Origin: an uncultured Planctomyces sp.
GTDB taxonomy: Bacteria; Planctomycetota; Planctomycetia; Planctomycetales; Planctomycetaceae
NCBI GenBank assembly: GCA_937904325.1
Contig: CALGTK010000062.1
Location: forward strand, 1-41,685
DNA: 41,685 nt
Direction of reading: 5' to 3'
A program made the position numbers and the translations under genes. Below are positions 29,712 to 39,983 of the stretch, piece by piece. Position 1 is the first letter of the stretch. Every line of letters begins with the position of its first letter. Under the pieces are notes generated by a model. The model had not been told where the DNA came from. It saw only the letters and a program-made list of their open reading frames with translations, and ran no database searches.

Positions 29712-30221
29712 AATGTTGATTTTCAGACGGCGCCGTGGCAGTTGGTCTACCTCAGTAATGATGCCACTTTTAAATAGTGGACAGTTAGTGTGAGGAAATG
29801 CCTGCTGACGTAAGCACACTCACTGATCCGGAAGCCGACGGCATCAAACTGGACGAAAATGCCTGACGATCTCTATATGTCATCTACATCAATCACACCA
29901 CCATCGACGATGGTAAACTTGTTTTACGCATTACTGCAGGCAAACCGTATTTTAAACGGTACTCTAACTGTTCGTGCCAATGTGCTGTATAAATACCTGA
30001 GTTTCTTGAGTCGAGCATCAAGGATGCCCGAAGAGGTGTCGCCGCCAAACCTTCGCTGTCAGACGGAGCTTTTGGGCAACTAAGGCGGCAGTAACCTGCC
30101 TGGCGACTGTTCCGAACCGGATCTGCAGCTTTCTGTTCAGATCAGGAATACCGCAAATGGCTTCCTTTGCGTGCTCGGCATCGCACGCGTCCCTGACTGG
30201 TATTCGACGAAGGAGTTCAAC
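29712..30221. other. Divergent control region without a gene
   Basis: About 510 bases between the DUF2071 gene (minus) and the peptidase-like gene (plus), so it should hold both promoters. A 74-codon plus-strand frame at 29859-30083 has no ribosome site or family and is not called. A minus-strand frame ending at 30018 looks protein-like over some 50 codons (GTVARQVTAALVAQKLRL) but has no start of its own; it may be an old gene fragment. Confidence 0.4.
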
Positions 30222-31796
30222 GTGTTTTTGAAAAACACTGCCATAGCTTGCGTGCTGATGCTCGCGGGTTCGACTTTCAGCCTCGGTCAGGGCGAGAAGC
30301 AAGCCGAACCGAGCAAGCGAACAACTGACGCAAGAACAGCGATTCCGTCGGTTGCTCAACGAGTAAAGCAATTGGACAAGGACGGCGATGGAAAGCTGAC
30401 AGCTAAAGAGGTCAGCGAGACTCCATTTGCCCGGACTTTCATGCGTTGGGATGACAACCTTGACGGCACGGTAACTGAGGCTGAAATTGGCAAGTATCGC
30501 CGTTCGCGAGGGATTCCGATTGAAGGTATTGTCGCAGCGCGCTCTCGACAGCAATCGCCCGATGTGAATGTGGCCGCAAAGCTTACGATTCCAGATGTCG
30601 ATGATCTCCTGAGAGTTAGCCGCGGGACTCGTCCGCCGCGTCAAGCGATCCAGAATTCGGCGTACGTGATCAAGACGAAACCGCACGCCGTCGATGGCGA
30701 GAAATACGTCATCCTGACTGACCACAAGGGACAGGACTATCTTAAGTCGCTGCAGCGATTGGCAAAGCACCGTGACGGACTGATTCTGCGTGTCGATGAT
30801 CTGGCCGTACTGTCCAGAAATCCGGACGACATGAACATCATGCGCGAGCAACTTCGGAAAGCGAACGTTCGCTATCTGGCAATTGCGCCGCGCATGGAGA
30901 CATATCGTGAGAACACTCTGCTGGGAATGTGGGAGCTGATTTCGACGATCGACAGCGACCCGCAACTCGATGCTTTTCCGGGGGTACTGCTGGCCTCAGA
31001 CGAGGAGAAGTTCTCAGGGCTGGTCGACAGGTCCATCAATTACACACCGCAGAGTGCACAGGACATTCGGCCGTTCGCAATCAGTCAGGTTCCGTCGAAG
31101 CGGGAACTGCGCTCGCTGCAGAAGTCTGGCATTCTCAGAAAGCTGTTCTCCGAACACGGAGCCAGAACACCGACCATGGGAATCTACAGTGCGGAGGCGG
31201 CTGATGCCCCCAGGCTTCCAGGCGATCAGTTCTGGAGCTATCAGGCAAAGAGTCGAAGTGATTACCTCAAGCAGTTTCCTGATGAAGCGGCGCAGGAGTT
31301 TGATCGGGCGTCGCTGCTCGTCATGCATGGCCACGGCATTCCTGGCATGTCCTGTGGTGTCGATAATGAAGCGATTTCCGGTGTACTGTCCGCGAGCGTC
31401 GTGCTGTGTGGATCTTGTTTTTCCGCATCGCCGAAGAAATCGGACTTTCCAGCCATGCGTCGGGCACCAGGTGGATACAACGTTGAAGTCCGTGACGCAT
31501 TCACCGTGCGAGCGATCGACAATGGGGCCTGTGTGGCGTTCGGCCACATGCGTCTGAGTCAGGGGTTTCCACATCTGTATCCGGTACTGGAAACCTGGAT
31601 GAAGGGAAGAACCGTTGGCGAGGCGTACCAGGAACTGGTGAATGGTATCATTGAAATGCAGGGGACAGAGTCTGGTGGTTTCGTGGTGACAGAGCCGTCT
31701 GCCAACGGGCGACAGCCGCGGCAGAACCTTCTGCTGTACGTGGTCTTCGGCGATCCTGCTGTTCGACCGTTTGAGCAGATGGTGCGATCGCGATAA
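30222..31796 (+). CDS. Secreted EF-hand protein with C25-like (gingipain-type) cysteine peptidase domain
   Basis: 524 residues. The start chosen is GTG 30222, six bases after AAGGAG. A signal peptide follows (FLKNTAIACVLMLAGSTFSLG). Two EF-hands have complete calcium loops: residues 52-63 (DKDGDGKLTAKE) and 77-88 (DDNLDGTVTEAE). The C-terminal half resembles clan CD peptidases of the gingipain/C25 kind. His371 lies in LLVMHGHGIPG and Cys399 in VVLCGSCFSASP, spaced like a His/Cys dyad. Then come NGACVAFGHMR, ETWMKGRTVGEAYQELV and the typical ending LYVVFGDPAVRP. It probably cuts proteins outside the cytoplasm in a calcium-dependent way; activity is not proven. The next gene (23 bases away) encodes a metallo-beta-lactamase fold protein in the same operon. 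Confidence 0.82.
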   Translation: MFLKNTAIACVLMLAGSTFSLGQGEKQAEPSKRTTDARTAIPSVAQRVKQLDKDGDGKLTAKEVSETPFARTFMRWDDNLDGTVTEAEIGKYRRSRGIPIEGIVAARSRQQSPDVNVAAKLTIPDVDDLLRVSRGTRPPRQAIQNSAYVIKTKPHAVDGEKYVILTDHKGQDYLKSLQRLAKHRDGLILRVDDLAVLSRNPDDMNIMREQLRKANVRYLAIAPRMETYRENTLLGMWELISTIDSDPQLDAFPGVLLASDEEKFSGLVDRSINYTPQSAQDIRPFAISQVPSKRELRSLQKSGILRKLFSEHGARTPTMGIYSAEAADAPRLPGDQFWSYQAKSRSDYLKQFPDEAAQEFDRASLLVMHGHGIPGMSCGVDNEAISGVLSASVVLCGSCFSASPKKSDFPAMRRAPGGYNVEVRDAFTVRAIDNGACVAFGHMRLSQGFPHLYPVLETWMKGRTVGEAYQELVNGIIEMQGTESGGFVVTEPSANGRQPRQNLLLYVVFGDPAVRPFEQMVRSR

Positions 31797-31818
31797 AGCT
31801 GAGTCCGAAGGGTCAGAG

Positions 31819-32814
31819 ATGAATCAGATGCGAGTGATAAATGCCATCAGCCGAAGAGTACTTATCAGTTTCGCAACAGGCGTGCTGGTACTGGCGTTGA
31901 ATGACCATGCGATATGCCAGCCCCTCAAAACAATCGCTTCGGCTCAGAACGCTCCTTACGTTGTTGTTCTGGGAATCACCCAGGACGGCGGTTATCCGCA
32001 GGCCGGTTGTCGGAAGGAATGCTGCCGACTGCACTTGAATGTTCCTCAGAAGCACCGACACGTGGTGTGCCTGGCCATCGTCGACCCAGCGAGTCATCAA
32101 CGCTGGTTAGTGGAATGCACACCGCACTTTCGCGAGCAACTTCACCGGCTTGATCAAATCTCGCCCTCTACCGATCGTATTGGCCTTGATGGAATCTTTC
32201 TAACACATGCGCACATCGGCCACTATGCGGGATTAATCCATCTTGGCCGCGAAGTCATGGGGGCCGATCGCGTGCCGGTCTACTCGATGCCTCGCATGAA
32301 ACGTTTTCTAGAGACCAATGGTCCGTGGAGTCAGCTCGTTACAGCGAAGAACATCGCGATTCGCGAGTTGGAGGATGTTCGGGCGGTCAAGCTCAACGAA
32401 CGCCTCAGCATTACGCCGCTGCTGGTCCCGCACCGTGATGAGTACTCAGAGACAGTGGGCTTCCGCATCCAGGGTCCGACGCGGTCTGCGCTGTTTCTTC
32501 CCGACATCGATAAGTGGGATCGGTGGGATACAAAAATTGAGGACGTCATCCGGGATGTCGACGTCGCCTGGCTCGACGGCACATTCTTCGCCGACGGCGA
32601 GTTGCCAGGCCGCGATATGTCGAAGATCCCGCATCCCTTCATAGCCGAGAGCATAAGACGATTCTCTGACCTCCCCGCAGTTGAACGAAACAAAATCCGA
32701 TTCATTCACTTCAATCACACCAATCCTGTACTCGACCCGCGCAGCCCCGCCACGAAACGTATTCAGAACGCGGGCCACCATTCCGCTGCTGAAGGCGAGC
32801 ATTTTCAACTTTAG
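31819..32814 (+). CDS. Secreted PqqB-like metallo-beta-lactamase-fold protein
   Basis: 331 residues from ATG 31819, with a hydrophobic signal (RRVLISFATGVLVLALN). The fold is that of PqqB-like hydrolases: YVVVLGITQDGGYPQAGC with nearby RKECC, DGIFLTHAHIGHYAGLIHLGREVMG, later PLLVPHRDEYSETVGFRI, FLPDIDKW, and a final IRFIHFNHTNP. In the metal motif the usual HxHxDH reads His130-Ala-His132-Ile-Gly134-His135, so the Asp that binds the second metal is Gly. It may bind one metal, or act like PqqB relatives. PqqB itself is cytoplasmic, whereas this has a signal, so the substrate probably lies outside. It follows the C25-like gene by 22 bases in the same operon. Confidence 0.85.
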   Translation: MNQMRVINAISRRVLISFATGVLVLALNDHAICQPLKTIASAQNAPYVVVLGITQDGGYPQAGCRKECCRLHLNVPQKHRHVVCLAIVDPASHQRWLVECTPHFREQLHRLDQISPSTDRIGLDGIFLTHAHIGHYAGLIHLGREVMGADRVPVYSMPRMKRFLETNGPWSQLVTAKNIAIRELEDVRAVKLNERLSITPLLVPHRDEYSETVGFRIQGPTRSALFLPDIDKWDRWDTKIEDVIRDVDVAWLDGTFFADGELPGRDMSKIPHPFIAESIRRFSDLPAVERNKIRFIHFNHTNPVLDPRSPATKRIQNAGHHSAAEGEHFQL

Positions 32815-33620: not shown

Positions 33621-35582
33621 ATGTGCGGAATTGCAGGTATTCAGCGATTTGACGGACAGCCGGTGCGGCGTGACACGCTTGGGTCAATGGTCGCAACGCT
33701 GGACCACCGTGGGCCGGACGCGAATGGGGTTAAGCTAAGCGGTTCGGTTGGTCTGGGACACACACGGTTAAGCATCATCGATATCTCCGGAGGCGTGCAG
33801 CCGATGGAGTTCAAAAGCAAGGACGCCGAAAACCTCATCACGTTCAACGGCGAGATTTTCAACTATATCGAACTGCGTGAGGAGTTGATCGGCTGTGGAC
33901 GACGATTCGCGACCACTTCGGACACCGAAGTCGTACTGCAGGCGTATGCTGAATGGGGAGAGGACTGCGTCAAGCACTTCAACGGCCAGTGGGCCTTTGC
34001 CATCTGGGACGCTCGACGCCGGAAACTTTTTCTGTCTCGCGATCGGCTTGGAATGCGACCACTGTTTTACACGATCAGTGGCCAGACATTTCTGTTTGCT
34101 TCCGAAGTGAAGGCCATTTTCACCCATCCGGGGGTAAGCAAGGCGATTGATCCAGTTGGGCTCGATCAACTTTTTACGTTCTGGTCGGCTCAGCCGCCGC
34201 GTACAATCTTTGCGGGGATCAACCTGCTGCCGCCGGGCCACTCGCTGACCGTTGAAGACGGTAAGCTGACAGTCTCACAGTATTGGGATGTTGATTTCTC
34301 TGAGACTTTGGAACACGTCCCGGCTCGTGAACTTGAAGAACAGCTGCTCGACCTTCTGACAGATGCGACGAGGCTGCGACTTCGCAGCGATGTACCGGTC
34401 GGGGCGTACCTCTCAGGCGGTCTCGACTCGTCAATAACGGCGGCACTGGCGAAAGACCTCAACCGCGAACAGCTAAGTACGTTTTCGGTCGAGTTCGAGA
34501 ATCCCGAATTTGACGAAAGCATCTTTCAACACGAAGTTGTCAGGCGGCTCAAGACGGAGCATCACACTGTCCGCTGCTCACACGACGCCATCGGCCGTAT
34601 CTTTCCGCAAGTCATCCGACACACTGAGACCCCGGTTCTGCGAACGGCGCCGGCTCCATTGTTCCTGCTTTCGAAGCTCGTACATGAGGCGGGCATCAAG
34701 GTTGTGTTGACCGGCGAAGGGGCAGACGAAGCATTCGGTGGCTACGACATATTTAAAGAGGCGAAGCTGCGGCGGTTCTGGTCACGGCAGCCTGACTCAA
34801 AAATTCGCCCGCTACTGCTCAAGCGGCTGTATCCGTACATGAAAAACATTCAGTCGCAGCCGCCGGCATATCTGCGGGCATTCTTCGGGGTGAAGCCGGA
34901 GACGGTCGGCCATCCGTTCTTCTCGCATCTGCCACGATTTCAGCTGACCAGCAAACTGAAAGCATTCTTTACGCCGGACGTTCTGGCGGCGACGTTTGAC
35001 CACGATCCATTGAGTGACGCCGAGGATCGATTGCCAGACGCCTTCCATGGGTGGGACGCATTTGAAAAATCGCAGTACCTGGAAACCCGTGGTTTGATGC
35101 CGGGCTACATTCTGTCGTCACAGGGCGACCGGATGACGATGGCCAACAGCATCGAAGGGCGTTTCCCGTTCCTCGACCACCGCCTGGTCGAGTTTGGCGC
35201 GAAACTGCCACCACGACTGAAAATGGCAGGCCTCGATGAGAAGCACATTCTTAAGAATGCCACGAAACATCTCGTGCCGGATTCGATTCGACAGCGAGCC
35301 AAGCAACCATACCGTGCGCCAGACGCGAATAGTTTTTTCGATACCGACTCCGGCATGGCACGCTTCGAATATGTCGACGCGTTGCTTTCGCCTGCGGCGA
35401 TTGCAGACGCAGGACTGTTCGATCCTGACGTCGTCGGCAAGCTGATCGATAAAACTCGCAGCGGGGCCGCCATCGGAACGAAAGACAACATGGCACTGGT
35501 CGGCGTTCTGTCAGCTCAGCTTGTGGTTGAGCAATTCATAAAAGGACGTCCAGTCGATGTGCCGGGAGCGATTCCGGTGTGA
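33621..35582 (+). CDS. AsnB-type glutamine-dependent amidotransferase (asparagine synthetase family)
   Basis: 653 residues. The start must be ATG 33621, because Met is followed by the nucleophile Cys2 (MCGIAGIQRF), exposed after Met removal. The glutaminase domain (about 1-210) shows LDHRGPDANG, GHTRLSIID, FNGEIFNY and SRDRLGMRPL. The synthetase domain has the ATP motif SGGLDSS (265-271), LTGEGADEAFGGYD, and DRMTMANSIEGRFPFLDHRLVEFG. It makes ammonia from glutamine and joins it, or an amine, to a carboxylate activated as acyl-AMP. Being first in a run with carrier protein and ligase genes, it probably amidates a specialised substrate rather than making bulk asparagine. Similar proteins occur in exosortase-linked polysaccharide loci. 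Confidence 0.92.
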   Translation: MCGIAGIQRFDGQPVRRDTLGSMVATLDHRGPDANGVKLSGSVGLGHTRLSIIDISGGVQPMEFKSKDAENLITFNGEIFNYIELREELIGCGRRFATTSDTEVVLQAYAEWGEDCVKHFNGQWAFAIWDARRRKLFLSRDRLGMRPLFYTISGQTFLFASEVKAIFTHPGVSKAIDPVGLDQLFTFWSAQPPRTIFAGINLLPPGHSLTVEDGKLTVSQYWDVDFSETLEHVPARELEEQLLDLLTDATRLRLRSDVPVGAYLSGGLDSSITAALAKDLNREQLSTFSVEFENPEFDESIFQHEVVRRLKTEHHTVRCSHDAIGRIFPQVIRHTETPVLRTAPAPLFLLSKLVHEAGIKVVLTGEGADEAFGGYDIFKEAKLRRFWSRQPDSKIRPLLLKRLYPYMKNIQSQPPAYLRAFFGVKPETVGHPFFSHLPRFQLTSKLKAFFTPDVLAATFDHDPLSDAEDRLPDAFHGWDAFEKSQYLETRGLMPGYILSSQGDRMTMANSIEGRFPFLDHRLVEFGAKLPPRLKMAGLDEKHILKNATKHLVPDSIRQRAKQPYRAPDANSFFDTDSGMARFEYVDALLSPAAIADAGLFDPDVVGKLIDKTRSGAAIGTKDNMALVGVLSAQLVVEQFIKGRPVDVPGAIPV

Positions 35583-35678
35583 TTTACGAAGTGGGTCAAG
35601 TCTTCGCGGCCCAGTATGTTCATTCTCTGTTGGTGGGTCGCGATGACTCGATCCGCCAGACGCTTTCGAAAGATAAAA

Positions 35679-35936
35679 ATGCCTGCGATTGAAACCGATA
35701 TTCGTGAGTTCGTCACCGATAACTTTCTTTTTGGCCGCAAAAACGTGTCGCTTTCGGGCGATGACTCGTTGCTTGAAGAAGGGCTCATCGACTCAACAGG
35801 AGTGCTCGAACTGGTAATGTTCATTGAGGGAAAATTCGACGTCACAGTCGAAGACGAAGACCTCGTGCCTGACAACCTAGATTCGATCAACTGCCTGATC
35901 TCATTCATTGAGAGCAAGCTTGAAGAAGCGAAATAG
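35679..35936 (+). CDS. Acyl carrier protein
   Basis: 85 residues from ATG 35679; the in-frame extension from 35616 is unlikely. The phosphopantetheine-bearing Ser is Ser39 in EEGLIDSTGVLEL, where most ACPs have D-S-L/M. The rest is a short helical bundle (MFIEGKFDVTVEDEDLVPDNLDSI) of strongly acidic composition. It is a stand-alone carrier, 96 bases after the amidotransferase gene and 139 before the AMP-ligase gene, so the ligase most likely loads it. It resembles D-alanyl or aminoacyl carrier proteins as much as fatty-acid ACP. Substrate unknown. Confidence 0.9.
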   Translation: MPAIETDIREFVTDNFLFGRKNVSLSGDDSLLEEGLIDSTGVLELVMFIEGKFDVTVEDEDLVPDNLDSINCLISFIESKLEEAK

Positions 35937-36075
35937 CCCAGCGTGACAAAGTTAATCGAACGTTCTCAAGCAGGTGCGTTTGTCAGCGCATTCCTGAGAC
36001 ATTGCACTCGCAGCCGTACCGTCTCACGTCGGCTCGATCGCCGAGTCACTCGGATCCATCAACGGAACACGACCT

Positions 36076-37620
36076 ATGCAACTTGAAGAGTTTCTCGAAC
36101 AGACAGCAGCGCGAACTCCAGACAAGATCGCATTGATCTGTGAAAAACGCCAGGTCACGTATCGCGAGATCGAAACCGAAGCAAATCAACTCGCCCACGG
36201 CTTGATCGCACGTGGTGTACAGCGAGGTGACCGTGTTGTCCTGTTCCTCGATAACTGCATCGAGGCAGCCGTCGGCGTGTGGGCCGTACTTAAGGCCGGG
36301 GCCGTATTCGTGATGGCGAACCCGACCACGAAGCCAGACAAGTTAACCTATCTACTCAATAATTCTCTTGCGTCCTGTGTTATTGCGCAGAGTAAGCGGT
36401 TGCGAGGTTGCGAGACAATCTGGGCAGAGACACCGCATTTGAAAAACGTGGTTGTCGTCGGAAATGCTGAGGATGTCGTCGACTGCACGCATCCGCTGAC
36501 AAACTGGAATGATCTCGTCGCCGAGCACAAAGAGAAAACGCTACCACCGACGAAGTGTTGCATCGACGTCGACCTGGCTTCGCTGGTTTACACCTCAGGC
36601 TCAACTGGCCATCCAAAGGGAGTGATGCTGACGCATGCCAATATGGTTGCTGCGAACAACTCCATCACAACGTACTTGCAGAACACGCCCGACGACATTG
36701 TGCTCAATGTGCTTCCTCTGAGCTTTGATTACGGGTTGTACCAGTGGCTCATGTGCTGCAACTTCGGCGGCACGCTGGTCCTGGAAAAGTCATTCACTTA
36801 CCCACATGCAATCTTAGACAGGATTGTAAAGCTGGGAGTCACCGGATTCCCAATCGTCCCGACAGTGGTGGCCATCCTGCTGCAAATGGATTTAACGAAG
36901 TACGACCTGTCGAAACTGCGTTACTTCAGCAACACCGGGGCTGCGTTCCCGGTTGAGTACATTCTGAAGCTGCGAAAAATCCTACCAGACGTGACAATTT
37001 TCTCGATGTTCGGTCTGACCGAGTGCAAGCGAGTCAGCTACCTGTCTCCAGAAGAGATCGACCGGCGGACGGACTCTGTCGGCAAACCGATGCCGAACTG
37101 CGAAACCATGATTCTCGATGACGACGGCAATGAAGTTGGACCGGACGAAGTCGGCGAACTGGTGGTGCGTGGTTCGAACGTGATGAAGGGATACTGGTCA
37201 GCTCCGGAGCTGACCGCGCAGCGACTGAAGCCTGGGAAAATCCCAAACGAGATGTGGCTCTACACGGGAGATCTGTTCCGATCCGACGAAGAAGGTTTTC
37301 TGTACTGGGTCGGCCGTAAAGACGACATCATCAAGAGCCGCGGAGAGAAGGTCAGCCCTCGCGAAGTTGAAGACGTCCTGCATCAACATCCGCACATCGC
37401 CGAAGCCGCTATCGTCGGTGTCGCCGACGCTGTCCTGGGACAGGCCGTGCGAGCAGTTGTACGACTGCAACCTGGAATCGATCTGACCGTACGCGACGTG
37501 CAATCTCATTGCCGATCATTCCTGGAAGACTTCATGGTTCCACAACAGGTCAAATTCTGCGACGCATTGCCAAAAACACCGAACGGCAAAATCGATAAGA
37601 AACTTTTAGTCCAGGCGTAA
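36076..37620 (+). CDS. AMP-forming acyl/aminoacyl ligase, probable carrier-protein loader
   Basis: 514 residues of the ANL superfamily. Motifs: YTSGSTGHPKG (172-182), FSMFGLTECKRVSYL for adenine/substrate, LYTGD, the hinge YWVGRKDDIIKSRGEKVSPREVE, and the catalytic Lys505 in PKTPNGKIDKK. It activates a carboxylic or amino acid as acyl-AMP and passes it to a thiol, presumably the ACP encoded just upstream. The GLTE-K-R-x-S-Y-L-x-P-E-E-I-D-R-R pattern is like ligases annotated with exosortase A polysaccharide loci, though no exosortase is visible here. Other possibilities are a D-amino-acid carrier ligase or a fatty-acid ligase. A long inverted repeat follows the stop codon. Confidence 0.9.
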   Translation: MQLEEFLEQTAARTPDKIALICEKRQVTYREIETEANQLAHGLIARGVQRGDRVVLFLDNCIEAAVGVWAVLKAGAVFVMANPTTKPDKLTYLLNNSLASCVIAQSKRLRGCETIWAETPHLKNVVVVGNAEDVVDCTHPLTNWNDLVAEHKEKTLPPTKCCIDVDLASLVYTSGSTGHPKGVMLTHANMVAANNSITTYLQNTPDDIVLNVLPLSFDYGLYQWLMCCNFGGTLVLEKSFTYPHAILDRIVKLGVTGFPIVPTVVAILLQMDLTKYDLSKLRYFSNTGAAFPVEYILKLRKILPDVTIFSMFGLTECKRVSYLSPEEIDRRTDSVGKPMPNCETMILDDDGNEVGPDEVGELVVRGSNVMKGYWSAPELTAQRLKPGKIPNEMWLYTGDLFRSDEEGFLYWVGRKDDIIKSRGEKVSPREVEDVLHQHPHIAEAAIVGVADAVLGQAVRAVVRLQPGIDLTVRDVQSHCRSFLEDFMVPQQVKFCDALPKTPNGKIDKKLLVQA

Positions 37621-37629
37621 GTGCCACAC

Positions 37630-37695
37630 AGCCGCGTTTCGCCAGAACGCAGCCACTCACGAGTTCCAAAACCCGCGTTCTGGCGAAGCGGGGCT
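37630..37695. repeat. REP-like palindrome between ligase and NAD-synthetase-like genes
   Basis: Two 21-base arms, 37630-37650 (AGCCGCGTTTCGCCAGAACGC) less its first base for the perfect core, and 37675-37695, pair with two mismatches around a 24-base loop. The inner 13 bases (TTCGCCAGAACGC at 37638-37650 with GCGTTCTGGCGAA at 37675-37687) are perfect. It fills most of the 88-base gap and lacks a T-run. It looks like a dispersed palindromic unit; other copies were not seen in this window. Confidence 0.75.
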
Positions 37696-37708
37696 ACGGA
37701 CACAATTC

Positions 37709-38698
37709 ATGGTCATCACAACAAAAGCGTTTTCTCAAGACCTCCTGAAACTCGATGCTGAAGCTGAGGTCGCCCGCATTTGCGACTGGATGCGCGAGAC
37801 CGTCGCTGTGGACTTTAAACGCAAAGGACTCGTACTCGGCCTGTCAGGCGGAATTGATTCGACCGTGTGTGCAGCGCTGGCCGTGAAAGCATTCGGTCCG
37901 GATCGACTCTTCGGGATCATGATGCCAGAGCGAGATTCCGAAGCCGATAGTCTCGTGCTGGGTGAATTACTGGCGGAATCGCTGGGCGTTGAATCAACGA
38001 TTGAAAACATCACTCCCATGCTGGACGGAGCCGGATGCTATCAACGCCGCGACGCTGCAATTCAGAGCGTCATTCCAGAATTTCAACCGGACTGGAAAAG
38101 CAAACTCGTCCTGCCACCACTGATGCAAGGTGCACGCTTCAGCCTGTCGAGCGTCGTGGTACAGTCGCCCGATGGTGAACGCCAGCAGGCTCGACTGACG
38201 CTCGACGCGTACCAGACGGTGGTCGCCGCCACAAACTTCAAACAACGCTGTCGCAAGATGATGGAGTACTACCACGCAGACCGACTTCGCTACGCGGTCA
38301 TCGGAACTCCGAATCGGCTCGAATACGACCAGGGATTCTTCGTCAAGCAGGGTGACGGGGCATCCGACATCAAACCAATCGCGCACCTCTACAAGACGCA
38401 GGTCTATCAGTTGGCCGAGTATCTCGACGTTCCGGAAGTGATTCGGATGCGACCACCAACGACGGACACGTACTCACTACCGCAGAGCCAGGAAGAGTTT
38501 TTCTTCAGCGTCCCGTATGACAAGCTCGATTGCTGCCTGTTCGGCCTCAATCATGGCTTCGACGCCGAAGATGTTGCGACGGGAACTGGCTTGAGCGTGG
38601 ACCAGGTGAAGTTTGTTTACAACGACATCGTTTCGAAGCGCAAGGCTACCGGTTATCTGCATCGCGCGCCGGAACTGATTGAGCCGGTGCTGGAATAG
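37709..38698 (+). CDS. NAD synthetase (NadE)-like ATP-dependent amidase/ligase
   Basis: 329 residues of the N-type ATP pyrophosphatase superfamily. The P-loop is SGGIDS (46-51), followed by the NadE body: NFKQRCRKMMEYYHADRL, VIGTPNRLEYDQGFFVKQGDGASDIKPI, LYKTQVYQLAEYLDVP, and MRPPTTDTYSLPQSQEEFFF in place of the usual P-P-S-A-D-L-x-x-G-Q-x-D-E. No glutaminase domain is fused, so it needs free ammonia or an amine. The length exceeds plain NadE by about 50 residues, mainly between 100 and 165. Its setting beside an AsnB-type enzyme, ACP and ligase suggests a recruited amide-forming step rather than NAD synthesis, but a true NAD synthetase cannot be excluded. Confidence 0.9.
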   Translation: MVITTKAFSQDLLKLDAEAEVARICDWMRETVAVDFKRKGLVLGLSGGIDSTVCAALAVKAFGPDRLFGIMMPERDSEADSLVLGELLAESLGVESTIENITPMLDGAGCYQRRDAAIQSVIPEFQPDWKSKLVLPPLMQGARFSLSSVVVQSPDGERQQARLTLDAYQTVVAATNFKQRCRKMMEYYHADRLRYAVIGTPNRLEYDQGFFVKQGDGASDIKPIAHLYKTQVYQLAEYLDVPEVIRMRPPTTDTYSLPQSQEEFFFSVPYDKLDCCLFGLNHGFDAEDVATGTGLSVDQVKFVYNDIVSKRKATGYLHRAPELIEPVLE

Positions 38699-38897
38699 AT
38701 GACAGGAAACAATTGACTCCCAGTTCCTGTGTCGAAGCATTTACAGCCGATATCTGCGTGAAGAATGTGTAATTTCTGGTTCGACTGCCAGGTCAACAAT
38801 TCGACGCAGCAGGTCAAACAAACCGCCCCCGGCGGACGACACGACTTTGATCAGTTGGAAGCCAGAGGCGAATCTCAACCAGAGGGTGGCAGCTGCA

Positions 38898-39983
38898 ATG
38901 AACCAATCTGTAATAAGCAGGTCGTCGGTCCCGGCGGACGCAGCCAGCGTGACACTTGCCGACATGGTGCTTGACCGCGATGAAATCGAAGGAGTCTGGC
39001 GCCGATCTTTCGGTGAATCTCCCAGACGCTTCGAGAACTATCTTACCAACCCCTATGCCGAGGCCATGATCTGGGTGTACCGGCCAGAAGGACATGCGAT
39101 CCATGGAGCATTTGGTCTGCACGCGCAGCAATTGAGTCTCGGCGACCAGATTCACTCGGTTGGTCAGATTGGCAATCTTGCCGTGGACAAGGATTATCGC
39201 AGTGCCGGTCCGGCACTGCGTCTACAACGCACCTTGCTCGGATCGCTCGCTGATAGCGACCGGACGCTCCTCTTTGGCATAACGGAAGAGGCGATTCCTC
39301 TGTTGCGGCGTGCTGGATGCAAATCCGTCGGGACCGTGGAACGCTGGGTAAAAATCATTAAATCAGAGACACAGCTCAGAAAACGACTCCGGCCGACATG
39401 GCTGGCGAAAGTGGCCGCCCCAATGGTCGACGTGGGTTTGCGGTTGAAGTCCCGTGAAACGTTCCCATCACGTTCTGCCGAGGTGACCGTGGGAGTTGGA
39501 CATACGTTCGACTCTCGATTCGATCGGCTCTGGGAACGAGTCGGTTCCCGCTTTCCGATTGCGACGCAAAGAACCTCGGATTACCTGACGTGGCGATTTC
39601 ATGGAGGTGAAGAATCAACTTTTAAGACCTTCTGGATGGCCGACACTGAGGGCGAACTCATCGGCTATATCGTGTTCGAGGTTCTTCGTAATGCCAACAT
39701 TGAAGTCGCCGATGTTATGTTTGATGGCACGCCAGCTCTGGACCGACTGTTAAGTGAATTTCTACGCAGAATGCGATCGCGGGAGTATCGCGCCACTGCG
39801 ATCACTGCATGCTGCTTCGGCGCAAATCTGCTCGTGGAGCGGTTGCAGAAATTTGGTTTCAACCGTCGACCGGAAAAGAGCCAGGTATTCATTTATGGAG
39901 ACTCAGCGACGCTCAACGACGCCGATCCACAATTCTTCGACCCGCAACGCTGGTATCTTACCGGCGCAGATGGGGACGTTTAA
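38898..39983 (+). CDS. GNAT-family acyltransferase
   Basis: About 361 residues from ATG 38898 (GAGGGTGG upstream; the longer frame from 38847 has no ribosome site). An N-terminal GNAT-like domain (about 20-140) has IGNLAVDKDYRSAGPALRLQR, where the acyl-CoA loop V-x-x-x-x-R-x-x-G-x-x is partly kept. A second GNAT-like half near 230-345 includes FDRLWERVGSRF and YLTWRF, as in FemAB/double-GNAT proteins. It ends close to residue 361 with no signal peptide. As the last gene of the carrier-protein cluster, it may transfer the carrier-bound acyl or aminoacyl group, or modify the product; the exact role is inferred. It lies 199 bases after the NadE-like gene. Confidence 0.82.
   Translation: MNQSVISRSSVPADAASVTLADMVLDRDEIEGVWRRSFGESPRRFENYLTNPYAEAMIWVYRPEGHAIHGAFGLHAQQLSLGDQIHSVGQIGNLAVDKDYRSAGPALRLQRTLLGSLADSDRTLLFGITEEAIPLLRRAGCKSVGTVERWVKIIKSETQLRKRLRPTWLAKVAAPMVDVGLRLKSRETFPSRSAEVTVGVGHTFDSRFDRLWERVGSRFPIATQRTSDYLTWRFHGGEESTFKTFWMADTEGELIGYIVFEVLRNANIEVADVMFDGTPALDRLLSEFLRRMRSREYRATAITACCFGANLLVERLQKFGFNRRPEKSQVFIYGDSATLNDADPQFFDPQRWYLTGADGDV

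Follow-up and report, generated by a model that had tools for sequence, protein, structure and literature searches.

A conserved gene cassette linking a NadE-like protein to a VinN-type ligase, an acyl carrier protein and an AsnB-type amidotransferase in planctomycetes and other bacteria

Five consecutive genes are encoded on the plus strand in a 41,685 nucleotide stretch from an uncultured Planctomyces sp. (contig CALGTK010000062.1 of assembly GCA_937904325.1), the whole of which is referred to here as the window. Four of these, encoding an AsnB-type amidotransferase, an acyl carrier protein (ACP), an AMP-forming ligase of the ANL type and a NadE-like protein, form a conserved four-gene cassette; the fifth encodes a predicted GNAT acyltransferase. 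With close to even confidence, the cassette is read as a carrier-protein pathway in which an amidated acyl group would be made and handed to an amine, which most likely belongs to a surface polysaccharide. The gene set is widespread and apparently undescribed so far. VinN-type loading pairs, AsnB-type amidotransferases and GNATs are already known; what appears to be new is their combination with a descendant of the nicotinamide adenine dinucleotide (NAD) synthetase NadE and without a decarboxylase. No prior description of such a combination was found in the open-access papers searched, subscription literature being mostly outside that search.

All five predicted genes were found in the window. 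Their coordinates, motifs and Pfam and NCBIfam scores agree with the gene order given in an initial annotation made from the sequence, as well as with its Cys2 and SGGLDSS in AsnB, Ser39 in the ACP and SGGIDS without a glutaminase in the NadE-like protein:

33621..35582, plus strand: AsnB-type glutamine-dependent amidotransferase (Cys2, SGGLDSS, KQPYRAPD; PF00733 305 bits, PF13537 151 bits, TIGR01536 510 bits)
35679..35936, plus strand: ACP of 85 amino acids (phosphopantetheine Ser39 in IDSTG, codon 35793-35795)
36076..37620, plus strand: AMP-forming ligase with VinN-type pocket (PF00501 314 bits; pocket D218, T287, M311, K318, R319)
37709..38698, plus strand: predicted NadE-like amide synthetase without a glutaminase domain (SGGIDS; NF002048 494 bits, cut-off 313)
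38898..39983, plus strand: predicted tandem-GNAT acyltransferase (PF13527 32.9 bits, gathering cut-off 25)

The start of the ACP gene was taken from the sequence, the mechanical open reading frame opening further 5' at 35616, and that of the GNAT gene was set at 38898, where the mechanical frame opens at 38847. In the Pfam and NCBIfam scans the ACP was detected by NCBIfam ACP models alone, every score being below cut-off; its Asp-Ser is present in all 77 aligned cassette members. Promoter and terminator scans gave no signal above that of shuffled sequence.

Cassettes are found in Planctomycetota, Rhizobiales, Nitrospira, Nocardioides and other taxa. The NadE-like gene is present in 19 of 392 planctomycete genomes (E < 1e-40), 9 of the 19 being in the family of the window. 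When one genome per species was scanned, at least 589 stretches matched the NadE-like protein; 570 of them were confirmed, and the 80 best of these were taken for loci. Partner genes were counted by tblastn in 99 NadE-like loci, 73 of which have at least 5.5 kb of flanking sequence on each side of NadE. Among these 73, AsnB is present in 65, the ACP in 69, the ligase in 67 and all three in 61, counts that are weighted toward the loci nearest the query and drawn from loci that are not phylogenetically independent. None of the three was found by the same method around ordinary NadE genes taken as controls (15 loci, from this genome and 14 relatives), which rules out a chance neighbourhood. The initial annotation had proposed that gene order be checked in other planctomycetes and in deltaproteobacteria, and the order AsnB, ACP, ligase, NadE is kept far beyond the planctomycetes (48 of the 99 loci). 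Median intergenic gaps are 20, 18 and -4 nt in the 39 canonical-order loci measured. Pairwise distances of the four proteins are also correlated, with rho of 0.42 to 0.62 compared to at most 0.27 in shuffles (53 sequence sets). In three Rhizobium-type genomes (L119, L126 and L128) AsnB lies away from the cassette, yet is encoded elsewhere at 51-53% identity. One locus (L122) comes from a record titled Bacillus subtilis SK6B4, however its cassette and neighbours resemble the Brucellaceae loci L111 and L093 and the record appears to be contaminated or misnamed.

The NadE-like protein shares with ammonia-dependent NadE its fold, the ATP-binding loop SGGIDS and the GT.NR.E, K.GDG.AD and YK residues. 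The ATP loop and the conserved residues of the catalytic region are invariant, or nearly so, in 89 NadE-like sequences, and the predicted structure is a NadE fold (predicted local distance difference test score, pLDDT, of 87). It differs from NadE in an extra segment of about 50 residues, at about residues 105-160, in which Tyr111, Arg113 and Lys132 are invariant or near-invariant, in its linkage to an ACP and a ligase, and in its substrate loop. Where two solved ammonia-dependent NadE sequences have PSAGLWxGQTDE, the cassette proteins have PTTDTYSLxQSQEEF; the protein in the window reads PTTDTYSLPQSQEEF and this variant is invariant among cassette members. It is therefore probable that the NadE-like protein retains carboxylate adenylation on a changed substrate. 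A diverged NadE-like protein with 40% identity is found in another planctomycete (L040 6002-6964), with no cassette partner nearby.

The genome of the window (7.97 Mb, 99.9% complete) also encodes a full glutamine-dependent NadE of 566 amino acids on contig C156 (TIGR00552 190 bits, with the N-terminal glutaminase-like part read by eye). This rules out the NadE-like gene as the sole NAD synthetase gene of the genome, and because of it the NadE-like protein is unlikely to be the sole cellular source of NAD from deamido-NAD. A further NadE-type frame was found in all 22 relatives checked, two actinobacterial ones scoring slightly under the model cut-off. Five AsnB-type genes of the genome exceed the TIGR01536 cut-off, that of the cassette included. 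Further NadE- and AsnB-type genes, for which the initial annotation had suggested a search, are thus present elsewhere in the genome. Automatic annotation names the cassette genes nadE and asnB, and the NF002048 and TIGR01536 cut-offs are passed, as would be seen if a spare NAD synthetase gene and a spare asparagine synthetase gene, both of them ordinary paralogues with housekeeping roles, had come together by accident. This is very improbable given the linkage across phyla against none in the controls, the additional NadE in every genome checked, the altered NadE substrate loop and the correlated divergence of the four proteins.

The best solved relative of the ligase across its substrate pocket is VinN, the vicenistatin ligase, which attaches (methyl)aspartate to a free ACP through the side-chain carboxyl. 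Residues D218, T287, M311, K318 and R319 align with VinN Asp230, Ser299, Met323, Lys330 and Arg331, with Thr in place of Ser. The register of this alignment was checked, since the chain index minus 16 gives all five published numbers, which come from later papers rather than from the VinN structure paper. The alpha-amino group of methylaspartate is proposed to be read in VinN by Asp230, and its alpha-carboxyl group by Ser299 and Arg331 (PMC7756342); a role in shaping Lys330 and Arg331 has been suggested for Met323 (PMC9484153). VinN puts methylaspartate on the free ACP VinL and VinO decarboxylates it afterwards (PMC11284099). AfcQ, which has the same arginine, activates L-Asp, side-chain activation being the reasoning of its authors (PMC12186527). 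The loading of an acid onto the ACP by the ligase, as predicted in the initial annotation, gains support from this VinN-type pocket.

The exact DTMKR pocket is present in 51 of 82 aligned cassette ligases, that of the window included, and the Arg in all 82. Neither Asp nor Asn is found at the first pocket position in 27 of the 82, and every one of these 27 has Ala for Thr287. This suggests that the ligases of this class use a dicarboxylic acid lacking an amino group. No positions tracking the two pocket classes were found in NadE, AsnB or the ACP, and both NadE and AsnB may therefore act on the part of the substrate that is shared, the carboxyl read by the invariant Arg. Phage matches of the ligase were no more than generic ANL relatives with less than 35% identity. 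A second AMP-forming ligase fragment lies at the contig edge, on the minus strand at 3-1361 of the window and far from the cassette (TIGR03098 106 bits).

The likeness to the VinN/VinL/VinO module of vicenistatin, and to its relatives BolO/BolC, AfcQ and FlvN, lies in the stand-alone ligase, the same pocket residues and the adjoining free ACP (PMC11284099, PMC7756342, PMC12186527). Unlike that module, the cassette has no pyridoxal phosphate-dependent decarboxylase and has AsnB- and NadE-type enzymes instead; no polyketide synthase or non-ribosomal peptide synthetase was noted in the window, and the gene context in cassette relatives is one of polysaccharide genes. Using the genome's own TIGR03099-like protein as query, a VinO-type decarboxylase was matched in 1 of the 99 loci and in none of the other 98, and a VinO-like enzyme is accordingly rejected as a cassette partner.

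The AsnB-type enzyme has the Cys2 nucleophile, an ATP site and a TIGR01536 (asparagine synthase B) score of 510 bits against a cut-off of 267. This is a broad model and the match therefore fixes no substrate. Across the cassette alignment (n=80), Cys2 is kept in 78 sequences and SGG in all 80. AsnB-type amidotransferases with a dedicated ACP are found in the pathways for oxytetracycline (OxyD, malonamyl-ACP) and glutarimide polyketides. This pairing of an AsnB-type enzyme with a free ACP is a precedent for the amidation of a carrier-bound dicarboxylic acid, however the cassette has no polyketide synthase and brings its own VinN-type ligase and a NadE-like second enzyme.

The GNAT of the window is found directly after NadE in nine other planctomycete loci. 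In the Rhizobiales, a gene of about 370 amino acids that barely matches Pfam adjoins the cassette in most loci (a cluster of 19, with more by profile), with the GNAT domain matched in 7 of 17 rhizobial members and a tandem GNAT fold in the predicted structure of one. Profile comparison of the planctomycete and rhizobial GNATs gives an E value of 1.1e-8 across 290 columns; the two are homologous, though diverged. The position of the gene varies, being after NadE in some planctomycetes, flanking the cassette in Rhizobiales and unlinked, as the sole homologue, in genus g3. The homologue in genus g3 is not upheld as a cassette-dependent gene, the genome G227 having the homologue and no cassette. 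In the planctomycete G087, a GNAT, ACP and ANL ligase trio occurs without AsnB or NadE (L176 7066-10222). The presence of the GNAT beside an ACP and ANL ligase alone argues that the acyl group is taken by the GNAT from that carrier. A UDP-sugar dehydrogenase gene lies about 5 kb from this trio. Inclusion of the GNAT in the set, as initially proposed, thus has the rhizobial homologue and the trio in its favour, but the gene has no fixed place and is unlinked in genus g3. The FemAB of Nitrospira loci was considered as belonging to the family of the GNAT and rejected, no sequence similarity being found; the parallel between them is a functional one.

It is the surroundings of the cassette in relatives that point to polysaccharides. 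The closest relatives (L057 and L059, NadE 90% identical) have the five genes together with a polysaccharide deacetylase, a DegT aminotransferase and two glycosyltransferases. Nitrospira-type cassettes are flanked by an XrtA-type deacetylase with NusG and by exosortase W; genes for a FemAB-type transferase, a DegT aminotransferase and a glycosyltransferase follow downstream. Neighbours of other cassettes match exosortase-A associated hydrolases 1 and 2 and EpsC-like acetyltransferases, and in Shinella exopolysaccharide and glycosyltransferase genes adjoin the cassette. GNAT homologues without a NadE cassette are likewise near sugar dehydrogenase, sugar transferase, DegT and flippase genes. The absence of exosortase and glycosyltransferase genes described in the initial annotation holds for the window, and no PF09721 match to an exosortase was found in its genome, but in relatives both are present beside the cassette.

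A PrmC-like methyltransferase gene, nearly always with an NPPY motif, is in or beside ten cassettes (L078, L083, L089, L099, L123, L135 and four others), the ligases of which are all of the Asp class. PrmC methylates the side-chain amide of glutamine, and the presence of a PrmC-like gene at these cassettes therefore fits an amide-bearing product. Bacterial polysaccharides are known to contain sugars that bear aspartic acid as an acyl substituent, an aspart-4-yl form among them (PMC10609480).

The exosortase-A (XrtA/PEP-CTERM) group of TIGR03098 and TIGR03108 has a related ligase and AsnB-type enzyme, and these models rank as the best or second-best NCBIfam matches of the cassette ligase and AsnB. 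Exosortase W and exosortase-A associated hydrolases 1 and 2 are beside several cassettes, and exosortase genes are close to some. The set could on these grounds be a diverged form of that ligase, ACP and amidotransferase group with the same product, in which NadE supplies an ammonia step done there by another enzyme. This is rather improbable, as both curated cut-offs are missed (AsnB, TIGR03108 442 against 817 bits; ligase, TIGR03098 494 against 592 bits), a NadE-like enzyme is added, the host genome has no exosortase, and the decarboxylase TIGR03099 has no match above cut-off in this genome.

The third-best NCBIfam match of AsnB is TIGR03104, the amidotransferase of the N-acetylglutaminylglutamine amide system. 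In that system the alpha-carboxyl is amidated by an AsnB-type enzyme, and the amine receives an acetyl group from a GNAT domain. By analogy, the cassette product could be a small soluble amidated metabolite, such as an osmolyte, part of a siderophore or a signal, with the GNAT acetylating an ACP-bound amine or releasing the product and no decoration of a glycan; the cassettes without adjoining glycan genes, that of the window among them, would agree with this. It is nevertheless unlikely, since the TIGR03104 cut-off is missed (395 against 570 bits) and exosortase, deacetylase, glycosyltransferase and DegT genes are found beside many cassettes and GNAT homologues.

Several observations weigh against a carrier-protein pathway serving surface polysaccharides. 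No glycan genes were seen near the cassette in the window or its contig, and in some other cassettes, such as that of Sinorhizobium medicae, polysaccharide genes are no nearer than about 10 kb. The pocket Asp that is expected to read the amino group is absent in about one third of the ligases. One genus g3 genome (G227) carries the GNAT homologue without a cassette. The two amide enzymes would also be redundant if just one carboxyl were amidated. The overall interpretation in the initial annotation, of an acid loaded on the ACP, amidated once or twice and passed on by the GNAT, is partly supported, in that a second NadE is present and the gene order is conserved, the single or double amidation being a prediction; the polysaccharide link to which the relatives point was not seen in it.

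The carrier-protein pathway can be laid out in four steps, each reaction being a prediction; what the sequences show is the gene content and its linkage, the match of the ligase pocket, the change in the NadE loop and the homology of the GNATs. First, on the strength of its homology to VinN, the ligase is expected to adenylate an aspartate-like dicarboxylic acid via one carboxyl and to load it on the ACP, which would leave the other carboxyl exposed, plus an amino group in most members. Second, the AsnB-type enzyme may amidate the exposed carboxyl with glutamine-derived ammonia, in place of the decarboxylation of the VinN pathway. Third, in what is the weakest of the steps, the NadE-like protein might adenylate a carboxylate of the same pathway and couple it to ammonia or an amine. 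Fourth, the tandem GNAT would take the completed acyl group off the carrier and attach it to an amine. This amine would probably belong to an amino sugar, for whose supply the deacetylases or DegT aminotransferases that adjoin the cassette in relatives would account. A more specific proposal is offered tentatively, as being more doubtful than probable: that a NAD synthetase descendant has become an amide synthetase acting on, or together with, a carrier-bound acid, and with the AsnB-type enzyme converts isoaspartyl-ACP or a similar dicarboxylyl-ACP to the amidated donor for a polysaccharide-decorating tandem GNAT, a sugar-acyl route not described before.

Two overlapping genes directly precede the cassette on its own strand, the first with a weak EF-hand match (30171-31796) and the second for a PqqB-like metallo-hydrolase (31771-32814). 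This pair is not kept with the cassette in the loci searched.

Relatives of the NadE-like protein are encoded at no fewer than 570 loci of a single species-level genome collection. As the cassette genes are annotated as nadE, asnB and AMP-binding protein, metabolic models of these genomes may include a second NAD synthetase in error. If the proposed pathway is true, it would provide a route to amidated acyl groups on bacterial surface sugars that starts from a named amino acid and can be tested. It would also suggest how the related ligase and amidotransferase genes of exosortase loci, so far unexplained, are likely to work.

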